Of a stretch of 59,314 nt of DNA, positions 13,334 through 51,177 are shown piece after piece. The translations under genes and the position numbers were made by a program. Below the pieces are notes generated by a model that searched no databases, had not been told where the DNA came from, and was given only the letters and a program-made list of their open reading frames with translations. Numbering within the stretch: the stretch's first letter is position 1; each line of letters begins with the position of its first letter. The stretch comes from Perkinsus chesapeaki (lineage: Eukaryota; Perkinsozoa; Perkinsida; Perkinsidae), in contig JAAPAO010000165.1 of the NCBI GenBank assembly GCA_013115145.1, positions 1 to 59,314 on the forward strand. The letters are read 5' to 3'.

Positions 13334-16500
<3,167 letters not shown>

Positions 16501-22493: not shown

Positions 22494-25400
22494 ATGTCCG
22501 GTTATGTTCCGAATGGAGAAAACCATACAGGAGCTCATCGGAAAGGCATGCCCCCTCTAGGGAAGGACCCGAGTAATAAGGAGCTGTCGGCTGGATGTTA
22601 TTGTGGGGCTTGTAAAAGGAAGTGGTGGGGAAGCGAGAAATTATAGGATTGCTGATTGATAATACTAAAGAGTTAAAGTGACCGGAAATGATAGAATTGA
22701 GAAGACAATGGTGTGATCAATGACAATAAAAAATATAGTTTCGGAAAAGAAATATTCCTAATAAGGAATATATTTTGGAGCTTTACAAACATAACAAATG
22801 TAATTAAATTTTTCACACCGTGGTTTACAGGGATACCGCCGATGCCGGTGAAACGTGCTAATCGGAGTCGACCACCTCTACACCCCAGCACATCAGCTAG
22901 GAACAGGACCAGGGCACCTGGTAGAAGCCCTAAACGGTAGTAGTGGGGAGATGGGGCACATCCCCGATGCCTGGAGTTGCTTGAATTGCTTATGTATCAT
23001 CGCATTGTCTGTTTTACCTCTTCAAAGTCGTTGATATCTTTTTTATTCTGATTAGTCTTTTGATATTAACTAATAGACCTTCCCTCACTCTCTTGCGACA
23101 TTCGGGAAAAACTATTTATTGATGAAATCCCCCCCCCAAAATGTTCGTTTTTCGGGAATGTATTTTTCATCGAGGTTCCAAAAACCAACAGTACTTCGGC
23201 TCAGAAGGGAGCGTAGAGTGAAGTCAGCTGTCAGGCCCCGAAGGCATGAGTTCGATGTTTCCTTTTGGCGAATTTCCCATCAAAATTCTGTACATTTGTC
23301 TTCTATCACCTCCTCCGCATTAGAACCACTGTTCGATCCTTGAAAATGTTATTCTGGATATAATTGTGATTATCCACCAATGAAGAAAACTGCGCGATCG
23401 GGAAAATTTTATGAAGGGAAATAAATTTGAGAGCATCTTGAAAAATGATGAAATGTTTGTAAATTGAATTTTCGCATATTTCAAGTGAAATATTCGGCGA
23501 CTGTCGGGGGAATAGAAGAAGCGGGAAACTTAGGAGTGCAGGGAAAAGCCGGAAATTTATGTGGAAAAAGGCAGGGAAAAGCCGGAAATTTATGTGGAAA
23601 AAGGCAGGGAAAAGTCGGAAATTTATGTGGAAAAATGCAGGGAAAAGTGGGAAATTTATGTGGAAAAATGCAGGGAAAAGTGGGAAATTTATGTGGAAAA
23701 ATGCAGGGTATGTGGAAAAATGCAGGGAAAAGTCGAAAATTTATGTGGGAAAGTGAAAAAAGGGGAATTTCAAAAGGGGAAAGATTGTATTTTTCTTATC
23801 GCTCATTTCACCGATACAAAGCTGACATGTCTTCAATTTATTCAGTACCGTGGTATCACTTGCTGACCCTCTTCACAATCTCCGACAAATTCCGGGAGGA
23901 GACGAAGCGAGCAGGACAGCGTATCTTGCTAAAGCTGAAGAGGTAGAAATACTGCTGCTGAGGATCGAACCGGCGACCTTCAGGACCGCGAAAGTCGAGT
24001 TGTAGAGGAGAAAAATGCAGAGAAGAAATTGGACCCTCCGCCGAAGGCCTGGCCAATCACGTCATTCCTCATTTTTCGGATTCCTGGCGCGGCAATTTAT
24101 TTGATAATTTGCGCTGGTTTGGCAGCGACACTGTACACGTGGTCATTGGGGTGGATAAGTTCTGATGGTAGGAGGCGGAGCGAAGCGTTTTTTGTTTCAC
24201 AGTTTTGTCGTTCAGGCGGATTTCCGCTGTTCGATTGTCCGAGTTCGTCGGTTGTTTCGCTGAATGAGAATGTCGACGGCAATTTTTGCCAGCTGACATT
24301 CGCGTTTGATAACATTACGAACTATCGAGCCGCGGCGGTTGGATTCCAAAGTAGGCGGGGTGTAGAGGAATGGGATGATTTTATTCGGTGACATGTACTT
24401 TTATGAGCTTTCGATCAGGCAGGAGGAATCTAGATGAACTTTAGGGAAATTTGTTATTCGATCATCAGAGATACGATAGGGAGGAGAATATCTCTCCCCA
24501 GGAGAGAGTGCCGAAAGAAGCATCGGATGCATGCCCTTACTCTCCAATCTCACTGGCCATAAATCGGCTTGTTAGTTTATTATATATTTTCTCGTTTAGC
24601 CATATTAATCTTGCTTGTGAATCTTGATTTCTTTGGTTGGATGAAAAAACTATCTCCGTGCGATTTGCCTGACCGGAAATTCACAAATGCTTATGTAGAA
24701 ATATGGAAACGATACCTTCCAGAAGACAATGTAGATAATACATTCCAGAGGACAATGTAGATAATACATTCCAGAGGACAATGTAGATAATACATTCCAG
24801 AGGACAATGTAGATAATACATTCCAGAGGACAATGTAGATAATACATTCCAGAGGACAATGTAGATAATNNNNNNNNNNNNNNNNNNNNNNNNNNNNNNN
24901 NNNNNNNNNNNNNNNNNNNNNNNNNNNNNNNNNNNNNNNNNNNNNNNNNNNNNNNNNNNNNNNNNTAATACATTCCAGAGGACAATGTGGATAAAACAAT
25001 CCAGAGGACAATGTAGATAATATATTATCGTTTGATATTGTATCCTTCACTCTCTCTTATATAGTAATGCTTTGAAAGTGCAGAAGTGTAGAGCACACTC
25101 AAAAAAGGTATATTATTGATCGATTGTTGCTGAGGTGATTGTAATATATTTACGATCGTAGCAAGTCCAATAATGTATGATTTCTCTTTTGGAATGGCTC
25201 CCCTCCTCAGTAGGGAGATAGTAGACGATGTAGGGCCACTCAGATACGTGAAGAGTAGGGTGAGATTTGTCAAGTGAAGTAGTGAAGGGATCAGAATACA
25301 TTATATCATTTTTATTAGTGGTTTAATACTCCACATTGTGCTAGTTGAGATTGAAATTTTTGAGAAGATTTTTCAGAAATTTGTGGTTGAAGTAATGAGT

Positions 25401-28400
25401 TGTTCTGAGGAATCCTCGAAGATTTCGAGCTCAGGGGTATCTTTCGCACTATAAAGATTCCTTTTCAGAGGAGGATGGCTCGCGTTCAACTTGTTGGATT
25501 CCGTCTCGGTATCAGTATGAAGATTGTGATGCGCTGGAGCCGTGCTATGTAAAGAGTATCTTTACGCACTGTGAAGATTTCTGGCCCTTCAGGTGCGGTG
25601 CCGCTCAGCTGTACCATGCCGTACGGCTCTCTATGGGCCGGACTCGAAGACCACACCGAAGCCAAACCAGGTGGAACCAGTGGCCTGTGCAAAGACGGTC
25701 ATTTGGGGAGCTGATGAGAATAATAATATAGTAAGAGGCGTAGGTTCAATTCCCGGTGGAGGCATCTTTTAGTGTTGGGAATGATTTTCGTTATTTTACT
25801 AATAACTTAATAGTATTGGTCACAGTATTGGTAAATTAAAATTGGTCTGCTTGAATGAGAAAATCAAAAAAGGAAATTTGGAAAATAAAATAGAAGAAAA
25901 ATTGGGAAGAAATTAGAATATAAAAAGAGGAAGCAGTTCGAAGTGACCACTCTCCTCTGTTTTTTCGTGCACAAATCCACAAAGGTGAAGGGGAGCAAAG
26001 ATATATCTATAGACATATTCGCCAGCAGTGCCATTGTGCAATTTGTCCCCTTAGTTTTCCCATTCCTCAGGACTCGGGCTGCTCGCAAACGATATGGTTG
26101 AAGGAGGATCAACCTACTACAGTGCCGCAGACGGCCATCGCGGTTCAACCGTAAGTGATTTTTTGGAAACAAATATTTTTTCTCATCGGATGGTCCCGGG
26201 TTCGATTCTCGGTGAGAATAGGTTTAATGCACATTCTATCGAACTGATGAGAATTTCAGAGAAGGTTAAAAGCTGAAAAGTCAATAACAAATTACCATCT
26301 CAGAAGTTCTTCAACCCCAAATCGTCACGCGCCGTAGAATTATTTCCCATCAGATATTGCGACTGGGGCGGCACTGTATCTCCGGCTGACATAATAGGCA
26401 TTCGTGCCCTCTTTCTCGGGGTCCTTCTGTTCTTGCTAACATATATCGGTGAGTGATTAGTGTAATTAGCGCGCGCCCTGGTGATCGATTTGATTAGGCG
26501 CCGTGTTTGCCATTCGAGTGAACTATAAAAGACGGATGACGACGCACGCGGCGGAATTGGAGATGTTACAACCGAAAATGAACGATGTCCGCGAAGATAT
26601 GCATTCTGTGGTAAGTTTGAAAAATGCCGCCGGTGGGGATCGAACTCGCGTGGATGCTTCAGTTTACTCTGTGCATTTTATTTCCTGAAAGCCCATGGCT
26701 TTCGCGGGTTTTTGGTGTTTAGAATATAACGAAGACGAAAAGCACGACCATATCAATGTAGGCAATTTTTTTCAAAAATTCAAAAAATTTTTTTGCGGAA
26801 AATTTTTCCGGGTATTATGTAACATAATACCAGGAAAAATTTTCCGCAAAAACTTTTTTCTCATATATATCCTACATAATTTATGTAGGATATATATGAG
26901 ACTCTTTCGAGCTTTAATCCGAGAAGTATTTTCACTGCTGTTCTTCCCCCAAAGTATCCGCATAATAACACTATTTCCTCCGGTCCAGGTGGAGCGTCGC
27001 TGGTGCGGTCTGCCAGTCGAAGCTGGTCCTCCCCATGACTCAATGAACCACAACGGCCCGAAGTTCGAGACGGGCAGTTTGCTAGAACTGGTAAGAATGC
27101 ATAGAGCGGTCATTGCGGAATCGGAAAATATCCTTTTGGTGAAATATCTCAAGTGTTCTCGTACGTTTACAATTGCGCGGGTCATATTCTCAACGATTTG
27201 CGGTAGGGGGAATTTTCCCCCAATTTTTTCCGCTAATTTTCGTCAAGCTTACAGGATCCGAAAAGAACTATATTGCCGATGTAGAGTTCAGTGTGAATAT
27301 TAATTTGATAGTATATTTTTAGATCCTCTCAAACTTGCCACCGATGCATCCACTTCGTAAAAATTCATTCGCTTTGGAAAACGCAAAATTTTCGTACAAT
27401 TTGTGACTCCTATTCGCGTGAATTTTTTCCACTTTTTTGTGCATTTTGTGACTCGGTTGATACCTTTTCAGAATACCGCGGCGAAGCCGGGCAAACCTCC
27501 AATGACATCGGCAGATCATAAACGGCGGTGAGAGCATCCCGCGTTCGATCCCTGGTGGAGGCGTTTTTAATATCCAGGTTTGCGTCGGGAAGCTGGCGGT
27601 ATCGTCTGCGTTTAATGGCGGGCTTGCGAGCTCGCAAAAAGGCTATGGTAAGTAGTCTGAATAGTTTCGTGGCGCGCTGGAAAATTGTATGTTTTTTCAT
27701 GATTTCTTCTGCAAATTTTCTCATTCTCACGAATGGTTTGTCGAATGTTTCTACAATCTCCATGTAATCGAAGAAGAATTATTATTTTATATTATATAAA
27801 ATTTTATTAAGATCATTCTTCCTACTTTTGCTAGCCCGCCGTTCATACAACTAAAGTCTTGTTAAATATGAACCGGTATAATATATTATCTCCGACTTTG
27901 ATAATGTTTATTGGTTCTGTTAGGTGGCCTCTCGCATCCGTCACCAAGCTGTTATGATGGGTGTCAGCTATCTCCTGTTGATTGTATCGATTATGTGTTT
28001 GGTCTTGTTGATACAGCCACTCAATTACGTCGAGTAAGGAGTCTAAGGAGTTTTGATTGAATTATTCGAGTTGTGGAGGAAGGCATGCGGATTTCATCGG
28101 CTAACAAAAAAAGCTCTTCCCAGTGTCCCCGAATTTTTCCCCATTTTCGCCAATTTTCCCCAATTTTCCCCAATTTTTTCCCGTCAGTTACGCCCCCCGA
28201 GCGTTTCTCGATCCAATAATCCACCCGGCCACGCGAAATTCAGGCGAAGGTGTCTATGCATGGTTGGACCTGTTGGCATTCAGCGACTATATAGTGGAAT
28301 TTATAGTAAGGAGGCGCGGGTTCAATTCCCGGTTGAGGCGCTTTTATCGCATTTTTCAGGTTCTTACAATCGGTATATTGACGTCAGCGTATAAAATGAA

Positions 28401-31400
28401 AACTGGCAATCAGCTGGGCAAAAAAGAAGGTATTTTTTCGGAAATTTCTAGATTTTTTCCAAAATTTTCCATTTTTCAGGGCGGCCCCACGACCTAAATA
28501 CAGCTTCCACAGGTGTCTCACCGCCATCACGAGACGTCGAAGTGAGTTTCCTGGCGCGTGAATTTTTTATTTCACCCTCAGCTTGGCGTCGATTCCCCTG
28601 TTCGGCAAATCAGTGATGATGTCGAGCATGATCCGATCTTCCCAGAGAGCGTCTGCGCGATCGTTCTAGTAAGTTTTAGCGGAGCGAAGTTTCCCTACTC
28701 TATTTTTGACTATTTACACTGAGAGAAGTACGAGGAAAAATTTTCTGACATTTTTCGAAACTTTTTTCTTTTCGAAAATTGTAACTCAATTTTTGTGATG
28801 TATTCATCCTTGAGCTTGACTCCTCTAGATACAATTCGAAAAACTCCGCACTTTTTCCGGAAATTTTTCCGAGTTTTTTTCGAAAATTTTTATGAGTTTT
28901 TTCCGGCAATTTTTCCTTGCTTAGTTACCTGGAAACGGTGCCTGCACCTGGAGCGTTGATGCCCGATCCAATTTAGTGCGCTGTTTGACGCGGCTCATCG
29001 ACATCGGCCTCCCCGCTCGGCAAATCTTTGTGGTCGATTGTGGCAGTGGTCTGACACCAATAGACGATACTTGGCGAGTTGTAAGAAAGAATCGATTTTT
29101 TCCCGGAATTTTCCCCCAGTTTTTTTGGTATTTCCAAGTGTTATATTTTCGGATTATTCTTTCAATTCTATTCCTAAATTTTTAGTACAATTTTTTAGTT
29201 AACGGTTGTGGTTTCTAACTGTTTTTCCCCGATTTTTCATCAGTTGCATCCCAAATTAGTTTTCCAGTCAGCTTCTCAAGAATTTCGACGCTCTTGGCTC
29301 TTTGTCGTGATAACTGAGCCCGTCCAAATTTCTATATTCTTCGTACTTGTTGTAATTTCCCTTCTTTCCATTTCCCGCTTGTCGTTTTCTCAATTTTCCC
29401 AATTTTTCCTCTTTTCTTATAATTCGCCTTGCAGATACATACGGTTGTCTCCCCCGACATCAATTACAGTTACCTTCCCGAAAATAACCGAATTCTCGGC
29501 GCCTATTGGGCAAATAAGATATGGATCCCCTATGCCGGCAAAAAAGCGGCAGCAGCGAGTGGCATGAAGTAAGAACGTCTCGGGTTCGATCCCCGGCAAA
29601 GGCATTTTTATTGTAATTTTTCAGGACTGGCAGTTCGGGTGTGTTCGAAAGCAAATCTGAAGGAAGTACGTCAGTTTTATTGGGAAAATTTCGGAAAATT
29701 CCTCGAAATTTTCAGGTCCGAATGTAACCTTTCGCTACGCTCTTATCGTGGATGATATCGAAACGGTATTGCCGAGCACGTTCGATCTTCGGTCGCTCAA
29801 TCTCGGGTAAGAGGAAAAAATATTTTTTCCGGATTTTTCCCCACAGGGAAAGCAAACCTGCAGCAGTTCACTTTCCCGTTACAATTGACCCGAGAAACGT
29901 AAGAAATTTTCCGGGAAATTTTCAGGAATTTTTTTCAGCGACCGACCGAAGACTTGGCAAAATTCGCCGACATGCGGTTGATGCTACAGTGCGCTCACAT
30001 CAATTTGCAGGCCAACTTGCTCGGTGGGGCACTTTCGACGCAGAGGGGGATAAGCCTTTGGCATAGAGGAGCACTGGATAAGGTGAGGAAAAATTGGGAA
30101 AAATTGGGAAAAATTGGGGAAAATTGGAAATATTGGGAAAAATTGGGAAAATGGGGGAAAATGGGGGAAAATTGGGAAAAATTCGGGAAAATTCGGGAAA
30201 ATTCGGGAAAAATACAATATAAACCTGACATGGTAATATCCGTAAGCCCTGGTTTTTTGTTCTGAACATATTATACATATTTATACTAGAGATTTTGAAA
30301 GGGTTGGTGGGAATCAATTTTTCAGGTGTAAAACCGGAATTTGAGAATTACGCTTTTACACATTTTGTCGAACCGTTCGATCCTCTCCACAATAGGTTTC
30401 ATTTCGAATGACAGATTTTCTTGCAGCGCCGCGAAATTATTTTTGTCAGGTTTTATATGAGCACGGTACGGAGCCTTTTGCCGTGTGCGGTATCTTCGCC
30501 GGCTTACTAATGCTTCGACAGCGCGACGAAGATATCATCAAAACTGCAGTTCAATTGGCTCCTGAAACGTTCGGGAATTCACCTTATGTAAGTGGCGAGA
30601 ATCGAACCTGTGCGGGAAAGGGTGACCGGGGTTTAGACAAGGAATTAAGGTGCTTTATTGATCTTAAGAATCGATGTAAATTTTTGTGAGTATCTTTTGT
30701 CAGGTGGATGTTGGTTTTCAACCTAAAGATATTATTGAGTACGTTGCACAGGAAACGGAAGCCGCCGCACCCGCAAGATTTTTGATGTTGTAAGATATCA
30801 TTATAGATTCGGTCGGAAAGTATCCGGGGGAATTTCAAATGTTTCTATTCTTGTCTAGTCTTCGGGCATTTCTCTCTTTTCCTCTTGCTTTTTACGAGTT
30901 CCTATTTACCTCCTTTTTCTTATGCTTATCTGTATTTCTTCTTCTACCGGTTTTTTGTTTTTTTCCTATCGTGTGGGTTTTTTACCTTCTGTTTCGCCTC
31001 AATTTTTCCTTCTCAATGGTAAGTTATCATCCGTTTCAGGTATTTCCGTGAACTCCTTTGGGTGCCTTCCTTCACCCATATGCGGTCGGTCTTCTTCAAG
31101 CCTTTTTTGTTCTTCGTACCAATTCTATCGGGCATTTTGGATTTCCTTCGCCCTCTGGTGAGTTCCGTCACGCGCCAGGAAATTATCTCTGTGATCCGGT
31201 GAATCGCAATTGCAGAATCACACGCGGAAATGGAAATAAATTTTTATGAATTTGAACGAGAAATAACAAATTAGTTTCAATTGAGGGAATTTGAGACGAG
31301 CGGGATATGTTCATCGGCCAAGCCAATTTGACTCTGAAGGAAAGTGGAATTCGCGTCGAGGGTTCTTTCGGAATTGAATTACGTTCAAAGCTTCCGGGGG

Positions 31401-32831: not shown

Positions 32832-33138
32832 CAAAATCTTCGCAGTGCGGCGACGCGTATCTTTTGGGGGAGGTTGTTGTTAATAGGAATCTTTGTATTA
32901 TGACTGTTGCATTATTATCACATTTATTGACTTCGGTGGAAGTCTCGAGAACTTTCGAGCCGCAGAAAATAGTATATTAAATCAGACGGTTACAGAAGGA
33001 TGAGTGTTTGGTTTGAGTGAAATGAATGGGCGGAGCGAAGCGATTCATGATTACGGTTTTCGTTTCTTGAAGGGTTTTTGGATTATTTGAGCGGAGCGAA
33101 GCGATTCAGAATTATCATTTTCATCTCTCATTCATCTC
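32832..33138. other. Spacer between GT2 copies A and B with intron-type cassettes
   Basis: It contains an AATCTTCGCAGTGCG...GTATCTTTT segment (32832-32870) and two GCGGAGCGAAGCGATTC segments (about 33033 and 33091). These are the same cassettes found inside introns. They may be introns of a 5' leader, or insertions outside genes. Confidence 0.55.
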
Positions 33139-39100: not shown

Positions 39101-40785
39101 AAAGCAGTGGAAATTTTTTCCCAAAATTTTCGAATTTCTCCGGAAAATCGTTTTTTTTCAGAAGGACATGACGAATGCCGAGCTAACTCAGCGAATGTCG
39201 ATCGAACAGATGAAAATGAAGGGAGCATCCTCGATGATGGCAGCGCCACAGGTGGGTTACAAAAATCGATCACTTGATCGATTCGTCTGTGTGGTTGGTG
39301 ACCAGCTGATTGCTTGGGTGCGTTCCTGGTGCGAAGATAAAATTGAAATGATTTTCCGAGTGAGTGACAGGAAATCACTTTGGTTTGGAAGCGTTAGATT
39401 GCGATTAGTATAGTCTCAAGCGTTACAGATGCGGTTGTGGTGACCGGGTGTGGGGCAAAGTGGTTCTAAACCGACGTCTATTGAGAGGAATGGTTGGCAA
39501 TTACGAATTTTTATCGAAGAGGAAAATTTTTGGGCTGGCAAGATTATTTTTTACTCTGTATAATAGTCTTACTGATCAATCGTGATTTTTTTAATTTTTT
39601 TGGAGTGTGGTATTTTTCAGGTTCGTGTTACAAATCATGACCAGTTTGGTTCGCACTGTAGAGAATGGAGGATACTCTGCACCTTAATGTTAGAATCCAT
39701 CAACCCCTTTGTGTGTACAGCTTCTAGGTGGGGACAATTTGCACAATAAATTTGCACGCGTGCGCACGTTTGTGCTTTTCTTCAGATGGGCAGCCAAATT
39801 ATGGATTTTGCTATATTATGTTGTACCCGCCTTCTTCATTATCACAAGGTAAGCAAAAATTCTCCCAAATTTTCCGGAAATTTTGTTTTTTCCCTCAGGC
39901 CTTTTTACCTCGGAACACTATTGTTAAGAGCTCCAATCGATATTCCGATCTTGTTGGCAGTAAGTATAAAAAGATATTTTTCGAGGTTGAATAGTGACCT
40001 ACGCGGCTGTATCCAACTTTATAGAAGGTCTTCTGGCTCTCCCTGGATTTTCTCAAAAAATATTTTACCTAAACTTACTCTTTCCCTCTTCCTCCGATTT
40101 CCCTGAGGATTTTTCCGTTTCTCTTTCATTCCGAAGTTCCTCTTCTTGCAAAATTTCTCATCTTCCTGAAATTCCCTTATTTTTCGTGAAATTTTCCCAT
40201 TTTTCCTGAAATTTTCCCATTTTTCCTGAAATTTTCCCATTTTTTCCGAAATTTTCGCATTTTTCCCGAAATTTTCCCATTTTTCCCACCTCAGATATAT
40301 TATGTAATTCTAAACGTGCTCTCCGTTTCCCTAACTCTCCTGGCCCTCCGCAAGCGCCCCGAAATCAAACGCCATTGGACCATGTAAGCCGATAGTAGCA
40401 AATCGATCATCTGGGCGAGCGCTTTTGTCAGCCCTCTCCTGCTGTTTGTATTACCGCTGTACAAATTGGCGTATGACATTGCATATCTTCATACCAGCCT
40501 TTTTCACACAATGTTCAAATTGTGTGCATCTTACCCATCTATAAGGGAAGGGGAAAAGAAGGTAATAATCTTGCAATCTTGCATTTTCTCAACGCTGGTA
40601 TGCCGCTTCAGCCTTGTGGAGCGGGAGTGCCGCCGTTGCCGGGAAGCTCTACGGTTGATTGGTTTTCGGTGTGGGTGACCGAGGACGAAATCGAAGTTCT
40701 GAAGGGCCGCGGAAAGTCAATTCATAAAAGCGGCGGGGCGGTTTGGGTTGCCCCGGAGAAGGGGAGTAGGGGTAGTCGATTGTAG
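33139..40785 (+). CDS. GT2-like multi-pass membrane glycosyltransferase, copy B
   Basis: The best-resolved copy: 33 exons totalling about 3.3 kb (roughly 1,100 residues). The N-terminus is Ser/Pro/Arg-rich (33139-33238, 33281-33380 with RRPPLHPST, 33618-33742). TM1 is at 34263-34523 and a Cys-containing ectodomain at 34570-35138 and 35396-35498. TM2 is at 35568-35660 and a basic linker runs to 36448. TM3 is 36769-36848 and TM4 36894-37026. GT2 exons are 37508-37619, 37663-37768 (RVFVVDHGTGLMPADDCW), 38090-38229 (YLPEDDKAVAIHWANKSW), 38277-38358 (RYAMVIDDVDGVDDFLLP), 38406-38521, 38895-39015 and 39162-39251. The C-terminal membrane exons are 39621-39727, 39786-39848, 39899-39959, 40295-40383 and 40432-40561. 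The last exon, 40612-40785, has TVDWFSVW. By family analogy the enzyme would sit in a membrane and build or export a beta-linked polysaccharide. An apparent in-frame TAA at 40384 is removed by a 48-nt intron. Exon 12 has an uncertain start. Confidence 0.66.
33239..33280 (+). repeat. Intron 1 of GT2 copy B, GATCGAT-palindrome family
   Basis: A 42-nt intron whose core is the palindrome AAATCGATCGCGTGATCGAT, followed by TTGAGTTAG. Confidence 0.8.
34345..34409 (+). repeat. Intron of GT2 copy B, TTGAGCGTGCAAGATAC family
   Basis: A 65-nt intron with GGTATCTTTAGGTTGAGCGT then GCAAGATAC, itself an imperfect inverted repeat (GTATCTT/AAGATAC). Relatives are at 34201-34262 and 47002-47172. Confidence 0.68.
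35661..35930 (+). repeat. Array of GTGCGCA-family cassettes in one intron of GT2 copy B
   Basis: Between TM2 and the linker there are four or five head-to-tail copies of GTATCTTTGCGCACTATGAA, two of them followed by the same TATTTTAGTATCGACTTTAC. The usual single intron cassette is here expanded into a tandem array. Confidence 0.8.
35992..36033 (+). repeat. Intron of GT2 copy B, GATCGAT-palindrome family
   Basis: A 42-nt intron: GTACCTATCTCA, palindrome AATCGATCACGTGATCGATT, CGCTTCTCAG. The flanking exons are confirmed against copy C. Confidence 0.82.
36083..36135 (+). repeat. Intron of GT2 copy B, GTGGCGCG family
   Basis: A 53-nt intron with CAATTTTGTGGCGCGCGG and a TATTTCAG acceptor. Confidence 0.72.
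36355..36398 (+). repeat. Intron of GT2 copy B, GTGCGCA family, forward
   Basis: A 44-nt intron ending AATCTTCACAGTGCGCAATG then AGTATCTTTAG. Confidence 0.8.
36729..36768 (+). repeat. Intron of GT2 copy B, GTGCGCA family, inverted
   Basis: A 40-nt intron: GTAGGAGTATCTTTGCGCAC, then TGTGAAGATTTTTGTGTCAG. It is the reverse complement of the cassette in 36355-36398 but is spliced in this orientation. Confidence 0.82.
37027..37127 (+). repeat. Intron of GT2 copy B carrying a partial tRNA-Pro-like sequence
   Basis: A 101-nt intron. After the donor comes GGTTGGTT, then CAGGCTTCGGAAGGTTG, which folds as an anticodon arm with the loop TTCGGAA (CGG, proline), then box B GGTTCAATTC. Most of the 5' half of a tRNA is missing. 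Confidence 0.6.
37620..37662 (+). repeat. Intron of GT2 copy B, GTGCGCA family, forward
   Basis: A 43-nt intron: GTAAGATCGTA, then AAATCTTCGCAGTGCGCAAG, then GAGTATCTTTAG. It lies at the same position as the copy C intron 47515-47560, which carries the same cassette. Confidence 0.82.
38045..38089 (-). repeat. tRNA 3'-half-like cassette at an intron end of GT2 copy B
   Basis: Read on the minus strand: CTACAACGGAAAGGGCAG, then AGGTTCGAATCACCCC. The intron 37769-38089 ends at the anticodon-proximal edge of this element, giving the acceptor GTTGTAG. Confidence 0.6.
38359..38405 (+). repeat. Intron of GT2 copy B, TTGCAAGATT family, inverted
   Basis: A 47-nt intron: GTGAGCGTTGAGGAACTGCA, then AGATTGGTCAAGATTGCAAG, then ATTCCAG. 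Confidence 0.78.
40384..40431 (+). repeat. Intron of GT2 copy B, GCGCGC-GATCGAT family, inverted
   Basis: A 48-nt intron containing AAATCGATCATCTGGGCGAG then CGCTTTTGTCAG. Removing it also removes an apparent stop codon. Confidence 0.68.
40562..40611 (+). repeat. Intron of GT2 copy B, TTGCAAGATT family, forward
   Basis: A 50-nt intron: GTAATAATCTTGCAATCTTG, then CATTTTCTCAACGCTGG, ending CTTCAG. It is nearly the same as the copy C intron 47270-47319, which sits at a different position in the gene. Confidence 0.82.
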
Positions 40786-41809
40786 AAAGTAGCGGAGAAG
40801 TCGGTATGAACAAATTTGCACGCACGCACAATATTGTACATTATCAACGTCTTGTTTAGCGAGCGGATTGTCGCTCATATTGAAAGACGAATATGTAGTG
40901 GAGTAGGAAAATCTTTATAGTGCGTAGATGACGTATCTTTGTATGGCAAGGCAGCAGCAGCAGTAATGGTGTGTAGTGCTGTATTGTTGTTTTCTATTAC
41001 GTTTCATAGACATCAGACAAGTCAATCACAACGTTAACTAGTATTGGTTTTGAGTTGTGGGTGAAATCGATTAGATGATCGATTTGGCGGGAGAAGGAGT
41101 ATTATGGGGATGAAATCCTTCCAGAGGGGTTCTCTGCCATCTGCTGGAATATTGTTATGGTGGAGGTCGACGAAGGCTCCCTACTCCAGTGGGAGCGTGT
41201 GATGAATAATAGTCTTCAGTCCAGGCTGGGCTCATAGGCCTTGGGAGCAGCCCCGAGCGGCTTTCGTGGGAAGGGCATTGCGACTCCGATAGTAGGCTTT
41301 TGAGGCAGGGAGTGATATAGTAACATCAGATGTTTCCAGCAGGAATGCGTTACAAATTTCCGTTTGGTTTTGAAAAATTTCCGTCGGGTCCGGGAAAATT
41401 TCAGTTTAGGAATAGTCGGTGATCTCTCGGGAACACATTTCTGAGAGGCCAGAGACGACTTCCAGTTGTGAGGTTTTGTGTCGGTGGATTTTACGAGTAC
41501 AAGGTGACTCAGAAAATGTGCTTGATAAATTCCTAAGAAGGGTGGCACGTATGAGGTTCGAAGGCTCTCAGAAATTACTTGCTATTGGTTGACGGCCCAT
41601 GATGATATTTGATGGGGTTGGCGAGAAATGTCGATTTTAAAATTCCCAAAGTATCAGTTAGAATGGAAGAGGTAAGCGTTTTATAGGCTTTGGTGCGTGA
41701 GATTAAACGGGGTTTGGGTTTTCGGGTTTTCGGGTTTTCCGAGGTACCGGTTAATTCAGTATTTGAGTTGTCCTTACCGGGAATGGAACCTGGTTCGTCT
41801 GGACAAGAA
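40786..41809. other. Spacer between GT2 copies B and C with intron-type cassettes
   Basis: No protein is supported. It contains an AAATCGATTAGATGATCGATTT palindrome-like block (about 41065), a GTGCGCA-like remnant (about 40910) and, just before the copy C start, an inverted box-B motif (GGGAATGGAACC, about 41779). Confidence 0.5.
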
Positions 41810-44800
41810 ATGGAGAACGGAGGAGAGGATCGATTTATGATGGCATCGCCGCATCATACGGGAGGACACAGAAGGGTGGCGCACACGCCTGCTGGCCATT
41901 CGCCGGCGGTGGACCCGCGTAATTGTGGGGAAGGTGGATCCTTCATTTGCAACAGAAAATTGAAGATATGCTTTTATATGGTCGATGAGGTTGTTGTTGA
42001 TATTTGGAAATCATTGTATTGTCCGATCAGGGTGGGGCTGGTGATAATGGACAGGGAGCGGTCGTGGATGAATTTCGGAACTTTGCTACTATACAATTTT
42101 ACTATAATATTAAAACACAGGAGAACTTAATTAAAAATAGATTACTCTTTTCTAGGACGATTACACAGTGATTAGGAAGTGATAGCCATCAGTCTCTGTG
42201 TCGGGGTAATAATTGCTCGATATGAACGCCTCGTAAACCTGGAATGCATCGCTGGGATATCATTCGTGCGTACATATGTTATTATAGGGTTACCGCCGGC
42301 AATTGCCCATCGAAGCCCGCGTAGTCGGCCACCACTGCATCCCAGTACACCTAGGAGGAGCAGGCCGGGGATGTCGAGCCCGAGAAGGTAGTGTGGGGAA
42401 ATATAATGATGTTCAAAGTTGGATGGTTCTTCTAGAAAGCTTGTGATAATTACTTCTCAGTAGGGTTTTCAAGTAGCATATCTCACATAGGGGCATTTGG
42501 TTGATTGATTGATCGAAGACTCCATTTGATTGTCTTTTTGTATTCGTCATAGAATAAATATTTGGGAATTTGCGTTATCTTGAAAAACATTTTATGTTGA
42601 TCGGTGGAGCTGCTACTGTCCAAAGGTGGCCTGAGACTTGGTTGAAATTTGATTCAAGGCACCAAGTTTTCTGAACTCCTCAATATGGCCATCTGTGTAT
42701 GTCTTTCTCTCTTGCTATGTTATGAGGGAAGGTCGTGACTTTGTTACAGAGCACGCGTGGAGCGCTGCTTGATGGAGTCTTAGTAGTAATCGATATCGAC
42801 CAGTACTATCGTACGGCATAAGTTGTATTACAGTGAAAGCAATCGAGTCGGTAAACTACATCGAATCTAAAATATAAATACATTAATAATTAGTAACATG
42901 TTGATTGTTGATATCATCACGAACGGAAGTGTAGTGTGAATGGATATCACTTTTTATAAACTGGTTGTGTATTTTACGTTGACTTACCCCCGCAAATGCT
43001 TCCCATTCGACGGACGATCTTCCTCCATGAAAAATACCTGTTATTTTTCTCGGCATGGTCTTCCTTGATTTGTTATCTATGTCAGTTGGGCTCAGACAGG
43101 AGTGGAGTCACGGTCGCAGCAACCGGCGCAATCATCGAGTACTACGCCCAGCACGGCGGTAGGCGAAGTAGTGGTGGTCGAGCAGCAGCAGGGAGCGGAG
43201 GGGGGCTTAGACGAGGGTATGGATGCCATGGGGCTCGAGGAAAACGATCTGATGAAACGAGAAGGAAAGGCGGCAGGTGAGCTGGTGTCAGGGGGAGGGT
43301 CTTCGGTGGGGTGGGAATGTCGTTAATTACTCAACGATCGCCGAACAAAGCGAGTCCAACGGATGACTCTGATGGTTTCTGGAATAGCATTTTAGGGGAC
43401 TTTGAACAGCAACTTCTAAGGGTGGGCTTATTGATGGAATCTTCCTTTAATGTTACCTTTTACGTTATATAAGTTGTAAACCACGGGGCTTACCGAGTCG
43501 AGGAAGCCGCGAATACGGCGACCAGAGTACTTTTGTGAGCTGTGGGAAGAAGTGGACCTATTCTGGTTGATATCGCCTCACGGAAATATGGGAGGAGGGG
43601 GCTATAATGGGGATTTCGGTAGGAGATATGCTCCTAGGGCGGCATCGAATGCATCCCTTCTGGGCGGCCTAACATGTGATTTTCCTCCCTTTTTTACCTT
43701 GCTCTTTTTTCAATAGCGCGTTGCAAAAGTCCCTGCAAAGCCAGTGGAGAGTAAACGACAGTAAATGATACCTTTCAGGAAACACAAGCTCAGATGACTC
43801 CTTTTTCGAGGGAGAGTATTCCAGTCCGGTTCCGGCGCGGCAACCTCGGATAGAAGTGCCTCGGTACAGAGCGGATACGTTTCGATCTGATGGGGGTAAT
43901 TTCGTGGCGCGGTGACTGTCGGCTGCTGATAGTCTTCACTAGGTGATTCGGACTTCAATTCGGATGCGGAAGGGAGCGTAATGGGTGATGCTGATTTGGC
44001 TGGTCGACGAGGGCGGGTGGTCGGGCCGGCTATGGTGGCATCTGATAGGAGTTTTGGGGCTATACTGAAGCAGGAACGACAGTAAGTTGGTAGGGAGAGT
44101 TGTTTCTAACTGCAAGTGAACGGAGCAGTTTGGCACTGTGCTCGCTCAGTGGCTGATGCTGAAACTCGCATTAGTGCGTGGAAGGCAATTTGGAACGAAT
44201 ACTGAGTTACGAAATTGGTTCGTTGGACGCTGCAATGGATATAACGTGCCCACCAGAGTGCACCCTCATCTGGGCGTGACTGGAGTTGCCCAAAATGTAT
44301 CACATTGCTTATTCATTTCGTATTATGCTCATGATTATTATCCGCTCAAAAGGTCAGTGGTTTATCATTCTCATTATCGGTGATGCTTTGCTGATTCTGT
44401 CGTCAAGGTACCTCCTGTCACGTACTCCTCCGCCGTTCCTCTCACCCCTGCCTGAAATACTTCGCGTCATCGGTTCAATAATAGCATTGATATTAGCAGT
44501 CGGCGTGGCAGTTACAGCGATGGTGGGATCAATAAATTGGATAACTGCACTCAACTGCCCGTATCCGGTAAGATATCCAAATCGATCACGCGAGCGATTT
44601 GTTTTTTTAGGCTATACCGTTTGCTGCTAGCGAGAACATAGACGGTCTCTACTGTCGAGTGAGGGTATCCTACTCTAGTGTGACCCAGCAGCAGCAGGAT
44701 TGGGCTACGATCTACAGTCCGTACACGACAAGCGTAGCGAACCGCAATGGAAATTTAGGCTGTAAGTGTGTGAGTGTTTCGAGCGCAACAAAAACAATCA

Positions 44801-47800
44801 ACGAATTGGTGAAGTCTCCGGCAAATTCCCGAGAAATAGGCGCGTAAATTTGTGCGGTATTTTTTGGATGTTAGAATAGAAATTTGTCTTCAGGAAGGTC
44901 CCTGGTTCGATTCCCACAGTTGTCGTTTTTAGGTACGCAGATTAGCAATAATGAAGTTAGTTGTCTATCGGCCATTCCCTGTGATTTCGCAGTACAACTG
45001 TCATCGGACGGCACTAGTTGTCCAGCCAATACCATTCTCTGGACTGAAGGAGAGTAACCGATGCCTGCCGCAGGTTCATTTCATACCACATTTCCCTCAG
45101 ATTTAATGACAACATATTACCTTTTGGTGGCTCTTGCCAGTATCTTTTGGCCCTCGATCTTCAGCAGTATCTAGTTTCCGGCGCTGGTATAAGCGTTGAG
45201 CCTTTCTGCACAGCAAACGGCGACGTCCCACCGGGAAAAGTATTTGTTGGATTTCGTGGCGCGTGAGAAATTTCATTTTCAGGTGATTATAGCAAACGCC
45301 TTATTGGTACTTTGTGCCGGTTGGGTTATCTTCATCGTGATTGGCGAAATACGAGTCTACGTAAGAAAGTTGAAATAGCGCGCGAGTTGGTGATCTATTG
45401 TGTCGTCTCGGGGGTTTGTTCGCGTAGCAGTTAATCGATCACGCGATCGATTTGTTAACTCAGGTTAAACGACAGAGGAAAGCTCGGCTTGAAGAGGTGG
45501 ATAGGAAAGTGATGGAGCCGAAACTCCCTGGTGTAGGTTTCAATTTTGTGGCGCGCGTGAATTTTAATCAGGTGCACGCGGCATATCGTCGTCGAGTACA
45601 AGCCAGTTGGACCGAGCAGGCTAATCGGGAGCACAGAAGGTTAATGGAAAAACAAGTGAGAGCGAAGGCTTGATTTTCAGATGGGCGGGTCTGCCTATAT
45701 CAAATATAAAACATTTATAGTTTATATTTTCGGTATAATTCTTTGAGTCGCGCAAAGCTGTGGGGAATTTGGCCTAAATCTAATGTAAATTCTTACTTTT
45801 TTCTCAATCTTCATTCGGCTCCTTGAGGTGGAGGAGGGACTCTTGATTTTCATCATTTCGCGAAGTTTGTAAAAAGCGAGCGTTTCGCTATCGATGCCCC
45901 GTTTTTCAGGCCGAGGAGCAACATAGCGACACAGATTCCGTGAAATCTCCGCAGTCCGTCTTCTCGGTTGATTTGGATTCTCCTTCTGGTCTGAGGAGCA
46001 ACGTCCATATGGCGTTCGAGCACGGAAACTTACAAGACTTGGCTGGAGGATTGGTAAAGACGGTTGATGAGAGTGGTGAGTAGGAGGGGAGGGCTTTAGA
46101 ATATATATACCAAATTACGCAGAGGAAGTCGGTGAGCATGAGGAGGATACAAGGCACGGAAAGCTCCAGTGTTGGAGTGTCTAAGTTTCCAATGTTGCTC
46201 GGGCAAGGAAATGTCGATGAAGTTTTATTACATTGCTTTGCTCGATTTTTGCATGTTCCCCCCACTATCAGGGAGTGCACCCCCTACAGCGATCTTCCTT
46301 AGCAGACAGTTCACGCCTCCATCGCATCTACTCGATGATCGAGTCTCGATCATCTTCCATATTCAGAGACCCTTGCTGCTGTAGTATCTCTAGCTTCAAC
46401 TGTCACGTTCGATCGATTGATTCTAAGTATTTGGCCTGCTATTCTTGGCGCGCGGGAAGACTATGCTCTATATTATAGAGCCATAATTGCCCTCCTTTTA
46501 TGGATCTACCTTCAGTATAAATACCATGAAATAGTATATACTATTGTTTCCTGATTTTTTCCACAAGAAATCTCGCAATTTACTTGCTCGCGGCTGAGCG
46601 TTTTCACTAGTTCGTATAAAGATTCTCGCCTCCCGTCTCAGATGTGCATGAGCTTCGCTCCGCTGAGGGTATGTAACTTTTCGGCCTCAGGAAACCCGAT
46701 ACATCCGTACGCTCGATTTCAAAGTAAAGAGTGGCGTGCGAGAGTATCCGTGGCGTTATTGGAGATTCGATACAGAGCCAAAATGGCCGTCAAACGAGGA
46801 GTTCTGTATTGGTCTTTAACGATGGTTTTGTAAGCGAAAGGTCCCTAGTTCGATCCTCGGCGGAGGTCTTTTTATCATTTAGGGGATGGATTCTACTGTT
46901 CCTTTGCTGCCTTCTTGTGGTGGGAGTGTTCCCGAATCAGATTTATCAGAATTCTGGTAAACTGGACTTACTGGATTATATAAACAATGGGGCTGATGGA
47001 GGTGAGGATATCTTTGAGGTTGACCATGCAAGATACGAAAAATGTTGACTACCGAATGATGATCCCCTTGCTAGAGATCCTTAGAGGAGTTCTTATTCTG
47101 TGCCGCGTGTTACCCGAGTTCCGATGGTTTTTTGTTCCTGCGAAATAATTACAAAAATCTTTGTATTTTCAGAGTCAGTGCCAGCAGTCGCCGTGATCGA
47201 CTGGCTGGTAATTCTCGACGGCCTCATTCTCACAATTCTCGCCTTCCTTCCAGCTCTTCTCAGTTCACGGTAAGCATAATCTTGCAATCTTGCACTTTCT
47301 CAACGACGGTTCTCATCAGCTGGCCGTCATTGCCGACAGCTAGGCGATCTAGTGCTGGTCGCAGCATGTCTGAGAGTGGCAATCCGGTGGCGGCGATAAA
47401 TCGAGAAGAAATCGCAGATGAAGATGTTACGGACGTCTGCGTGATCATGGCTCTGCATAGTGGCTGCTGCACTGACCCGATAAAGAGGGCTCGCGTCCGA
47501 AAGATTCTGCGGAGGTGAAAATCTTCGCAGTGCGCAAACGTATCTGAAGCTTGAATTTAGGTGTACATCTCTGTTTCCTCCAAAAGTTCACGGTTGTAGT
47601 CCGATTTTCGTCGTGGAGGTCGGCAATGAATTAGCACCAGCAGACGATTGCTGCAAAATGATTCAAGTAATAAAGAAGGATCTTGCAATCTTGCTCGTTC
47701 TTGCATTTTCTCCACGCTTGTTTAGGATTCTGTTTCACCGGATATTAATTATGCATATTTGCCTGAAGATAACAAATCGATGGCGATTTATTGGGCTAAC

Positions 47801-49445
47801 AAATCCTGGGTCCCATCCGTACTGAGATACGCGAATCCTCAGGAGAATCGCAATTCCGCGTAATAATCGATCGTTTGATCGATTTGCAATTTCGTATCAT
47901 GGTTTCAGATTTCGGTATGCTTTGTTGATTACCGATGCGGATTCGGATGATGATTTGATGTTGCCAGTGGCGCTTGATTTGAACACTCAGGTGAGTCATG
48001 TGGAAATAAAAATATCCTTCCACTGGGAATCGTACCGGAGTCGTTAGCTTACAAGAAGAGCATAATACTCACTCGGCTGTTTTGACTTAGGATTATAGAC
48101 GCCATGGAATCAAGGTCGTCTGGTATATGCCAACAGTCCGCGGTGTGAGCAACATGCCTCTGGTGACTATGGAGGATTACATGGTCAAGCAGCGAGCTAT
48201 GTAGGTGTTTCTTTGTAAAACGCGCGCATCCAGATGATCGATATTTCTCAGAATGTCATTTACACAGGAGAAGCTGGGAGGATCATGCGTGGTGACTCCG
48301 CTGAAATCGGTGATGTTATGGGATCGAGCCGCTCTTCATAGAACTCTCGCTGGCTTTATGGGCATTAATGTAAGTCCTATTTCGTGGCGCGTGACGATTG
48401 CAAGATGTGGCTGCGGTAGGCCGATGATGCTCCTGGATTCCTACAGCCATCGTTGATGATGGATCGATACCTGCGGCATGATTTTGAAACTTCGTTAGGA
48501 GGCAGTCAGGTAGCCCGGTGACCTCCGTACAGCCGACCCAAGCTCGATCCCGGGGTGGTTCATTTTTATAAAAGTAATGTTGTGCTTGTCTCAGATTCGT
48601 ACAGACACCGGGAGCAACCATTTTTCTTCCGAGTGCGCTCGTTGGTATCTTCGGTTGAGAATCTTCTCTGTTGTATTTGCCCCGACTGTCCGCGTGAAAG
48701 GTTGTTGTTCTCGAGAAGCTATTGTTGGTCGAATCTGGTCGTTTTTTGCTGACATAGTGCCGACAGTGATGATCATATTGAGGTGAGCATCATCTGTAGC
48801 TACCGAGGATTGAACTCGGGGTTGTTCGCTGACGAATCTTGTTCTTTAACTTTAGGCCATTTCTTCTAGTTTCAATATTTCTTCGGCAGCCCGCCCTTAT
48901 CGGTGTATATTTTGGTATATACTTTGTAGTCTTTCATGGAATATCTGTAGCTTTAATGGCGATAACGTTGCGTAACCGACGAGACGTTCGCCGGCAATGG
49001 AGTAAGACCACGCTTTTCTGGCTCTCAAATCAGCACATCGCTCTACTCTTCAGACTGGTTCGTGGCAACCGTTATGTTGCCATTCTATAAAATCTACCAG
49101 TACGTCATGGATGTCTATCCGGCGCTCCTTCACGTTATGTTCTCTATTCGTAAAATACCAGGCGGCCGTCAGAATATGCATACGGTAAGTCCGTATCACC
49201 ACTCTAACGGTTAAGTTTCGTGCTTGACTTGCTAACAATCATGAGTTCGATTCCATGCCACGGTTTTCATAAAATACAGAGTCGTTGTTTCTCAGGGAAC
49301 TTCAGTCCCTCTGCCGCCTGCTAAGGACGTTGACTGGTTCACCGTGTGGAAGTCAGGCAGCGACACCTCCGCGTCGAACATTCCTGGGGACATCGATGAC
49401 ACTGACCAGAAACGGCGAGACAAGAGGAAGAAGGCACGCCGCTGA
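41810..49445 (+). CDS. GT2-like multi-pass membrane glycosyltransferase, copy C
   Basis: Third tandem paralogue. Exon 1 is 41810-41918 and exon 2 42288-42387 (RSRPPLHPSTPRRSR). Low-complexity exons at about 43100-43276 and 43330-43421 are tentative, then 43779-43895 and 43943-44081. TM1 is 44408-44567, the ectodomain 44611-44761, 44933-45053 and 45101-45239, and TM2 45283-45360. The charged linker is 45464-45530, 45572-45655 and 45910-46075. TM3 is 46691-46829 plus 46883-47001 and TM4 47173-47269. GT2 exons are 47320-47514, 47561-47666 (PIFVVEVGNELAPADDC), 47726-47859 (YLPEDNKSMAIYWANKSW), 47909-47990 (RYALLITDADSDDDLMLP), 48091-48200, 48252-48369 and 48447-48509. C-terminal exons are 48595-48782 (ECARW, a possible QxxRW relic), 48856-49001, 49034-49184 and 49296-49445 (KDVDWFTVW). 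The first catalytic-type Asp found in copies A and B is Glu here. Several membrane exons align one-to-one with copy B. Confidence 0.65.
43896..43942 (+). repeat. Intron of GT2 copy C, GTGGCGCG family
   Basis: A 47-nt intron: GTAATTTCGTGGCGCGGTGA, ending TCTTCACTAG. Confidence 0.72.
44568..44610 (+). repeat. Intron of GT2 copy C, GATCGAT-palindrome family
   Basis: A 43-nt intron with CCAAATCGATCACGCGAGCG, then ATTTG, a T run and TAG. Confidence 0.8.
45240..45282 (+). repeat. Intron of GT2 copy C, GTGGCGCG family
   Basis: A 43-nt intron with GATTTCGTGGCGCGTGAGAA and the acceptor TTTTCAG. Confidence 0.78.
45531..45571 (+). repeat. Intron of GT2 copy C, GTGGCGCG family
   Basis: A 41-nt intron with CAATTTTGTGGCGCGCGTGA and the acceptor TTAATCAG. 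Confidence 0.75.
46830..46882 (+). repeat. Intron of GT2 copy C, tRNA T-arm (box B) family
   Basis: A 53-nt intron: GTAAGCGAAAGG, then CCCTAGTTCGATCCTCGG, CGGAGG, a TTTTT run and TTAG. With the exon end it reads TTTTGTAAGC, like an anticodon loop. Confidence 0.75.
47270..47319 (+). repeat. Intron of GT2 copy C, TTGCAAGATT family, forward
   Basis: A 50-nt intron: GTAAGCATAATCTTGCAATC, then TTGCACTTTCTCAACGACGG, ending CATCAG. Confidence 0.82.
47515..47560 (+). repeat. Intron of GT2 copy C, GTGCGCA family, forward
   Basis: A 46-nt intron: GTGAAAATCTTCGCAGTGCG, then CAAACGTATCT, ending GAATTTAG. Confidence 0.8.
47667..47725 (+). repeat. Intron of GT2 copy C, TTGCAAGATT family, forward
   Basis: A 59-nt intron with GATCTTGCAATCTTGCTCGT, then TCTTGCATTTTCTCCACGC and TTTAG. 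Confidence 0.76.
47860..47908 (+). repeat. Intron of GT2 copy C, GATCGAT-palindrome family
   Basis: A 49-nt intron: GTAAT, then AATCGATCGTTTGATCGATT, ending GGTTTCAG. Confidence 0.8.
47991..48090 (-). repeat. Intron of GT2 copy C carrying an inverted tRNA-like sequence
   Basis: A 100-nt intron. The minus strand reads a D-arm-like CAGCCGAGTGAGTATTATGC, a loop CTTGTAA (TGT in anticodon position) and a box-B-like GGTACGATTCCCAG. The stems are degenerate. Confidence 0.6.
49185..49295 (+). repeat. Intron of GT2 copy C carrying a tRNA-Ser(GCT)-like sequence
   Basis: A 111-nt intron. It contains TCTAACGGTTAAG (D-arm-like), GCTTGACTTGCTAACAATC (anticodon-arm-like, GCT) and ATGAGTTCGATTCCATG (T-arm-like). 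It may be a tRNA-derived SINE relic. Confidence 0.55.
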
Positions 49446-49471
49446 CTCTTATTGTCAATTGTGCCGACTAT

Positions 49472-51177
49472 GTGCTCGGCGACCGTTACGTAACAAGTGC
49501 TAATACTAACCATATATTATGTCCATTTATTTTGTATTTCTCTTTGACTTGTCGGTGTCGTCTTTGCGAGCCGGATTCGGACGGCAGGTGGCCTGAAGGT
49601 GTCGGTTTCCTAACACTTTTGTCGTTGAATTAGCCGACGATTGAATTAAGATTGTAATGCAGCTATTTTCAAGCATGACAAGCGAGTCTGTGAGCAGCGA
49701 ATATCGCTTGCAGTACTTCCCAATGAGGGGACGAGGAGAGCCAATCAGGCTCATGCTGGAGCTCAACCAGCTGTCGTATACCGAGGTCACCGAATATAGT
49801 GCTGAAAGTCTCAAGCGGGTTATTCGTTCAGATTGATGTACACTATTCCGCCATGAAAAGACATGCCGGCATGAGTGATTCGCCGTTCGGGCAAGTACCA
49901 TTGCTAATAAATGGCGATAAGACAGTAGCACAAATGGATGCTATACTTAGGTAAGTGTGCTTATCAAATATGGCCTATAACTACTATCCAATGGGACAAT
50001 ACATCTGTATTGAACCCTGAGTGTTCAAATCGTTTTTCTAAATCATTCCTGGTAGTACAGAGGCCGTGGTGAAGGATTTATCCCTGGGCCAGCTCGACTA
50101 TGCGGTCCTGACTGCTCACTAACCTCACACATCCAGGCCAAGGAATGAACTATGAATCATAATCTATGTTGGTGAACAGCAACAGTACGAACAACGAAGC
50201 AACAATGGAAGTCGTCTTTCCACTCTCGAGTCAATAGGTTTTATGCTCATGGACAATACGGTTGCGGTATTACGGTACAGACCCTGTCAGCGAGACCTAC
50301 GCCGTATGCGTGCACCTCCACACCGTGCTCGGCGACCGTTACGTAACAAGTGCTAATACTAACCATATATTATGTCCATTTATTTTGTATTTCTCTTTGA
50401 CTTGTCGGTGTCGTCTTTGCGAGCCGGATTCGGACGGCAGGTGGCCTGAAGGTGTCGGTTTCCTAACACTTTTGTCGTTGAATTAGCCGACGATTGAATT
50501 AAGATTGTAATGCAGCTATTTTCAAGCATGACAAGCGAGTCTGTGAGCAGCGAATATCGCTTGCAGTACTTCCCAATGAGGGGACGAGGAGAGCCAATCA
50601 GGCTCATGCTGGAGCTCAACCAGCTGTCGTATACCGAGGTCACCGAATATAGTGCTGAAAGTCTCAAGCGGGTTATTCGTTCAGATTGATGTACACTATT
50701 CCGCCATGAAAAGACATGCCGGCATGAGTGATTCGCCGTTCGGGCAAGTACCATTGCTAATAAATGGCGATAAGACAGTAGCACAAATGGATGCTATACT
50801 TAGGTAAGTGTGCTTATCAAATATGGCCTATAACTACTATCCAATGGGACAATACATCTGTATTGAACCCTGAGTGTTCAAATCGTTTTTCTAAATCATT
50901 CCTGGTAGTACAGAGGCCGTGGTGAAGGATTTATCCCTGGGCCAGCTCGACTATGCGGTCCTGACTGCTCACTAACCTCACACATCCAGGCCAAGGAATG
51001 AACTATGAATCATAATCTATGTTGGTGAACAGCAACAGTACGAACAACGAAGCAACAATGGAAGTCGTCTTTCCACTCTCGAGTCAATAGGTTTTATGCT
51101 CATGGACAATACGGTTGCGGTATTACGGTACAGACCCTGTCAGCGAGACCTACGCCGTATGCGTGCACCTCCACACC
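49472..51177 (+). repeat. Direct tandem duplication, two 853-bp units
   Basis: Units 49472-50324 and 50325-51177 look identical by eye, including identical shadow ORFs offset by exactly 853. Each unit contains the upstream region, exon 1 and exon 2 of GST-1. The boundary motif is GTGCTCGGCGACCGTTACG. It begins 27 bases after the stop of GT2 copy C. Confidence 0.93.

Follow-up and report, generated by a model that had tools for sequence, protein, structure and literature searches.

Research on introners treats them as a driver of intron gain. According to a survey by Gozashti et al. (2022; PMC9860276), genomes carry 1 to 43 introner families with median lengths of 30 to 654 nucleotides (nt), some of which are without target-site duplications or inverted repeats and some without splice sites of their own. 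In the same source, two introns qualify when, in each of them, the similar stretch ends no farther than 10 intronic or 5 exonic bases from either splice site, and similarity limited to the intron interior is dropped by the pipeline. Introns of Perkinsus marinus measure 39 to 1622 bp, mostly less than 100 bp, and are present in 72 of 104 genes (PMC3101222). Here, we analysed contig JAAPAO010000165.1 of Perkinsus chesapeaki, a unicellular relative of the dinoflagellates (59,314 nt, the window in the following; C74 in our numbering), in which introns of three tandem genes contain short recurring words, here called cassettes, belonging to ten families (F2 to F10 and T). We assign a probability of about one half to the reading that short repeats insert into introns already in place and take over their bodies, mostly in cassette-rich (hot) gene clusters, while position, GT and AG are kept. 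The introns here resemble permanent slots that can be refilled, rather than recent insertions. Searches of titles and abstract beginnings, with most subscription papers outside the search, returned no description that we recognised as this system; the terms 'introner' and 'Perkinsus' together led, in the literature searched and in the parts accessible, only to work concerning Amoebophrya, and 'introner' together with 'tRNA-derived' gave no result in that literature.

The three genes occupy the following regions, and the status of the intervening segments as introns is inferred from reading frame and protein homology.

25900-33000, forward strand: region of the divergent gene copy 1, without a reliable intron model
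33289-40674, forward strand: tandem gene copy 2, aligned part, with 23 introns, 21 of them with a listed cassette (homology alignment)
42287-49349, forward strand: tandem gene copy 3, aligned part, with 24 introns in the merged model, 13 of them with a listed cassette by pattern (homology alignment)

A gene-to-gene spliced aligner written for this analysis, which accepts GT-AG introns only, gave 23 introns for copy 2 and 21 for copy 3; copy 1 was too divergent and stayed outside the usable comparisons. The closest protein of copy 3, and the sole relative found among the best 8000 candidates scored, is a partial Perkinsus olseni protein. Its alignment to copy 3 comprises 612 identical codons among 775 aligned and 19 introns, one of which (47495-47725) is a merger of two introns that are separate in the paralog alignment. 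The name GT2, under which these genes had been annotated, is unsupported for copy 3 (no Pfam family at E ≤ 0.01; best sequence match in PDB with E 0.43). Relatives of the tandem genes lie on two other contigs (C880:35843-36412 and C189:28089-28412) and are probably intron-poor, because their open frames are long (743 and 797 amino acids, respectively).

Paralogs share a number of intron positions. In the pair alignment, 14 introns of copies 2 and 3 coincide in position and phase. Both introns are at most 130 nt long in seven of these pairs, listed below; one pair has F3 on both sides, and the other six differ (copy 2/copy 3: F3/T, T/F5, F8/F2, F5/T, F8-like/T and F5/T). Three T labels and one F8 label were assigned by reading; with pattern labels alone, three of four pairs differ.

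36729-36768, forward strand: copy 2 intron with F3, at the position of copy 3 intron 46830-46882
46830-46882, forward strand: copy 3 intron, assigned to T by reading
37027-37127, forward strand: copy 2 intron with T, at the position of copy 3 intron 47270-47319
47270-47319, forward strand: copy 3 intron with F5
37620-37662, forward strand: copy 2 intron with F3; partner 47515-47560 has the same family
47515-47560, forward strand: copy 3 intron with F3
38230-38276, forward strand: copy 2 intron with F8, at the position of copy 3 intron 47860-47908
47860-47908, forward strand: copy 3 intron with F2
38359-38405, forward strand: copy 2 intron nearly filled by F5 (antisense), at the position of copy 3 intron 47991-48090
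47991-48090, forward strand: copy 3 intron with T (antisense)
39849-39898, forward strand: copy 2 intron, F8-like by reading; partner 48783-48855 (T by reading)
40562-40611, forward strand: copy 2 intron with F5; partner 49185-49295 (T by reading)

Since the pair aligner favours shared sites, each copy was also aligned separately to the intron-free P. olseni protein. This placed 8 of 21 copy 2 introns at an exact copy 3 position. Exact agreement in position and phase was obtained for 36729/46830, 37027/47270, 38230/47860 and 38359/47991, and all four pairs differ in content; the other three short pairs fall where the P. olseni protein has no residues. At nucleotide 1745 of the protein, an intron is present in copy 2, copy 3 and a paralog on contig C237, holding F3, T and F9-like words, respectively (T and F9-like by reading). 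All seven introns of the C237 paralog are shared with copy 2 in the pair alignment. A cassette-rich tandem pair at another locus (L037) shares six of eight introns, several of which carry F2 or F6 in just one of the two partners. In the cassette-poor tandem triple at L054, intron positions coincide in 8 of 9 and in 8 of 8 cases; its short introns have no cassette, and loose motif matches are confined to introns longer than 260 nt.

Several results weigh against body replacement. In the separate alignment, 13 of 21 copy 2 introns are not at an exact copy 3 position. Some of these lie 1 to 8 codons off, as alignment drift or real differences would give, and some may be real gains. In the pair aligner, placing a second intron where the other copy has one costs little, which biases it towards shared positions. 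In the separate alignment of the C237 paralog, two of six introns match copy 2 and one of six matches copy 3. No filled and empty alleles were seen; the 49 genome matches to window positions 30000-49900 are all short (up to about 130 nt). F4, F5, F9-like introns and one F2 pair show similarity nearly from end to end, and the shrinkage assumed below is a step that we infer. Beside these points, an 853-nt head-to-tail repeat around the first GST gene (49472-50324 and 50325-51177, 100% identity) points either to duplication in the very recent past or to an error of assembly; being identical, it shows no filled/empty difference by definition.

The families were counted in a non-redundant sample of the window and 39 loci, most of them picked around F2 matches (293,389 nt in total). 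The most over-represented 11-mers in this sample are mainly cassette cores, and the remainder includes spliced-leader words and triplet repeats. The ten family patterns gave 297 sites, compared with 14 in dinucleotide-shuffled sequence (real/shuffled: F2 62/1, F6 45/0, F4 34/3, T 46/4, F3 34/1, F5 13/3, F7 27/2, F8 22/0, F9 4/0 and F10 10/0). Seven families (without F8, F9 and F10) were also counted over the 35.4-Mb assembly of 884 contigs with the reversed pattern as control. Forward and reverse matches were 141+133 for F2, a palindrome and hence partly double-counted, 225+216 for F6, 74+91 for F4, 30+23 for the tRNA-like family T, 79+71 for F3, 44+31 for F5 and 133+158 for F7; the control gave two matches for F7 and none for the others. 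F6 had 31 matches in a prokaryote collection of 257 billion bases, with about 30 expected by chance. A viral source of the cassettes found no support in a search of viral contigs with F2, the only family searched there, which gave no exact match.

Cassette cores measure 14-28 nt and full units up to about 40 nt. Conservation stops sharply at the core edge in F2 (22 nt) and F6 (17 nt) and runs beyond the core in F4, T, F3 and F5. Exact copies of the 17-nt F6 core number at least 100 genome-wide, and F5 recurs in identical copies of 27 nt. The F2 core is perfectly palindromic with CACGTG inside, and its introns fold better than shuffled sequences (mean z -2.18, 15 introns). The effect is weak for T (-0.9, seven introns) and F8 (-0.73, two introns), and introns with F6, F5, F3, F7 or F10 fold no better than shuffles; a hairpin as a feature common to all families was rejected, being clear for F2 only. 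F3 words stand in tandem inside an intron at 35661-35884 of the window, and a related tandem array is found at positions 820-1062 of locus L040. Two F4 copies (33029-33109) lie between gene copies 1 and 2, upstream of the probable start of copy 2, perhaps within a part removed by trans-splicing. A spliced leader of the perkinsid or dinoflagellate type has 28 matches in the assembly with up to two mismatches, and none in the reversed control.

Cassettes are found predominantly in introns. In the structures defined by homology, 13 of 13 sites in copy 3 and 31 of 33 in copy 2 (44 of 46 together) are intronic. The remaining two lie, by reading, in in-frame GT-AG stretches of 42 nt (35992-36033) and 35 nt (35361-35395), and the separate protein alignment places a copy 2 intron end at 35395, matching the latter. 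Further introns are as follows.

35520-35567, forward strand: copy 2 intron with F4, sense (alignment and pattern)
35992-36033, forward strand: 42-nt in-frame GT-AG stretch with F2, probably an unrecognised intron (by reading)
36083-36135, forward strand: copy 2 intron with F6, sense (alignment and pattern)
37769-38089, forward strand: long copy 2 intron in which the pattern marks F2 and looser labels mark T- and F8-like words
43896-43942, forward strand: copy 3 intron with F6, GT immediately before the core
44568-44610, forward strand: copy 3 intron with F2
45240-45282, forward strand: copy 3 intron with F6
45533-45571, forward strand: 39-nt copy 3 intron with F6
24168-24215, forward strand: predicted intron with a near end-to-end F4 unit (gene-finder prediction only)
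13472-13509, reverse strand: calmodulin intron (38 nt) with an F3-like word (calmodulin alignment)
52142-52191, forward strand: GST-1 intron (50 nt) with an F3-like word

The calmodulin gene matches a hand-entered reference in 143 of 146 codons and has five introns of 38 to 51 nt. For the remaining sequence, a gene finder accepting GT-AG introns only was built, which at the setting used recovers 30 of 44 homology introns and 24 of 26 short ones, its training data having included the short homology introns that it recovers. It assigns most of the sample to genes, and 61 of the 297 sites land in predicted exons (100,825 nt); introns no longer than 120 nt (17,487 nt in all) hold 82, longer introns (115,104 nt) hold 136, and 18 are outside genes (59,973 nt). 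Homology and gene finder were adopted because a GTRAG donor beside the motif, considered as proof of intron location, was too weak (0.11 to 0.50 in families with at least eight sites, compared with 0.11-0.12 for random positions). Independently of the family definitions, a 13-mer that recurs in two or more other places is present in 75 of 146 short introns of hot loci (shuffled: 2) and in 3 of 72 of cold loci (shuffled: 1); for exon pieces, the values were 57 of 1028 in hot (shuffled: 7) and 9 of 441 in cold loci (shuffled: 2). Family density served to define hot loci, which makes the contrast between hot and cold loci partly circular, but not that between introns and exons inside hot loci. 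These data bear out the first-pass annotation in its view that short introns of the tandem genes share recurring families and that one family extends to calmodulin and GST-1, the F3-like words there having been assigned by reading and not by pattern. Its claim that several families occur in both orientations likewise held: orientation is near 1:1 in nine of the ten families, and only F6 is biased (25 sense and 4 antisense; 14 and 0 in introns of up to 80 nt).

Cassettes may keep inserting into introns already present, so that position and GT/AG ends would stay while the body changes. Copying would take place at the DNA level, since both orientations occur, and an insertion would be tolerated wherever it is spliced out. 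Older content could then be lost under selection for an intron length of about 47 nt, so that the body turns over and the slot persists. This sequence of insertion into old introns and subsequent shrinkage is suggested by the lack of orientation bias in nine of ten families, by equal lengths (47 nt in cassette introns, 47.5 nt in others), by the longer introns of hot loci (median 138 nt, compared with 61.5 nt in cassette-poor loci) and by the 18 of 166 cassette introns that carry two or three families.

The alternative that survives best, but which we still consider unlikely, is that of classical introners, in which each copy made a new intron in an exon, bringing or recruiting splice sites, with several families active together. 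Similar introns do occur in unrelated places (43 pairs among 49 short introns, E ≤ 1e-5), and seven of the 43 pairs are similar from end to end by the published criterion: four of these pairs link four F4 introns, and F5, F9-like and F2 introns contribute one pair each. Three of the four F4 introns lie in one predicted gene of locus L039, and F4 may be a true introner family. Among the copy 2 cassette introns, those at 35520 (F4) and 39728 (F7), for example, have no copy 3 partner at the exact position, and short units with many families per genome are known for introners (PMC9860276). On the other side stand the paralogous introns that agree in position and phase but hold unlike families, the several families inside one intron and the 36 pairs that are not similar end to end. 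Target-site duplications at exon junctions, which the first-pass annotation suggested looking for and which are common but not obligatory in introners, left no signal: direct repeats of at least 4 nt flank 10 of 72 introns with a cassette and 24 of 180 without. Terminal inverted repeats, named alongside them and likewise common but optional in introners, have counterparts in some of the eight consensus cores compared (F2 11, F9 7, F3 5 and F7 5 nt) but none in F6, F4, F5 and F10. Of the introner interpretation itself, the coexistence of several intron families stands, but the unlike contents of six of seven short shared pairs and the lack of end-to-end similarity in most pairs do not fit it; similarly, GT and AG are close to the cassette edges in some families (F4, F5, F9-like), but the unit reaches both splice sites in the seven pairs only. 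An AGGT-type target duplication as the maker of orientation-free introns was rejected, exon edges and junction repeats being the same in cassette and other introns.

Whole introns could also be swapped through RNA, with an excised intron reverse-splicing into the exon junction of another mRNA and the cDNA replacing the resident intron. Such a swap would account for fixed positions with new contents and for the sense bias of F6, but the other nine families have no orientation bias and most similar pairs share only an inner part of the intron, which makes it improbable. Least probable of all is that the words are protein-binding or splicing signals under selection and not mobile copies, which would suit their very short, sharp cores, the folding CACGTG palindrome of F2 and, with a branch-site role, the bias of F6, but leaves the many exact F6 copies and the exact F5 copies hard to reach by point mutation and sits poorly with the ordinary folding of F6, F5, F3, F7 and F10 introns, the clustered distribution and the many introns of some loci without words.

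Under replacement of intron bodies by inserted repeats, one source of cassettes may be small-RNA genes, because T is laid out like the 3' end of a pre-tRNA. Its consensus consists of AAAGGTC, three letters, GGTTCGATTCCCGGC and then GGCATTTT, with a T run in place of CCA; the spacing is what we take to be that of tRNA positions 44 to 73, and the B-box word is present by definition of the family. In sequence, T thus looks like pre-tRNA 3' ends. A search for the D-arm gave three places, two of which are intact tRNA genes and one of which is not a tRNA. One T copy, at locus L048, extends back through the D-arm and lies antisense in a predicted 78-nt intron. A maintained T-arm was rejected after comparison with shuffles, in which the three variable stem pairs of T were paired at least as often as in the real copies. 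Neither Rfam nor ARAGORN reported tRNA genes in the window, and the tRNA-like genome search gave 62 matches among 63 of 3361 candidates scored. More tentatively, intron positions may be sockets whose bodies are exchanged fast, in either orientation, among at least ten mobile words of less than about 40 nt, one of them from pre-tRNA 3' ends.

Cassettes are distributed unevenly. Six 10-kb stretches picked without regard to cassettes (L041 and L050-L054) contain 1, 1, 0, 1, 6 and 1 sites, L038, picked for the spliced leader, contains one, L040, picked around F2, contains 37, and the window has 12.6 per 10 kb. In nine of ten comparisons, places of four families fell within 5 kb of one another at 3.3 to 16 times the expected frequency, T with T giving 0 (at least 67 F2, 100 F6, 61 F4 and 53 T places among the matches listed; contig ends ignored). 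The explanation that hot loci are fast-evolving genes only was rejected, as Brr2-type (Sec63/DEAD), NAD kinase and GARS domains are encoded by some of their genes. A match to the type III hammerhead ribozyme (33.6 bits, E 0.002, below the gathering score of 48.5) lies in the cassette-rich locus L047 (9356-9412). The window also contains a near-perfect inverted repeat (26783-26859; 38-nt arms, 92% complementary, 1-nt spacer) and a 26-nt tandem array with a run of N inside (24703-25026).

If the proposed replacement takes place, introns would have another way to evolve in addition to gain and loss, one in which the position is kept and sequence continuity is lost. Intron gain could then not be deduced from an intronic repeat family alone, and tallies of recent gains that rely on similarity between introns would need a check of position. 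With very small units and both cassette-rich and cassette-poor clusters in one small genome, insertion, splicing and intron-length selection could be separated by comparison of strains.

Compared with tRNA-derived SINEs (short interspersed nuclear elements) and tRNA pseudogenes, T similarly carries the 3' part of a tRNA with the B-box region and a T run. It differs in having a D-arm in only one non-tRNA place and in its copies of about 40 nt, which are intronic and in both orientations; the A and B boxes of an internal Pol III promoter that define a tRNA-derived SINE are not both a feature of the family. The introner elements of the alveolate relative Amoebophrya (PMC7789003) are also repeated introns with inverted repeats in some. 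They have inverted repeats of 8-20 nt, direct repeats of 3-5 nt and non-canonical splice sites, whereas the Perkinsus cassettes show no direct-repeat signal and GT-AG introns alone were modelled here. With the introners of PMC9860276, the cassettes have in common the families of similar introns in one genome, the opposite orientations and the gene-rich location. Unlike those introners, the Perkinsus copies mostly fill part of an intron, several can share one intron, and they stand at positions where paralogs hold other contents.

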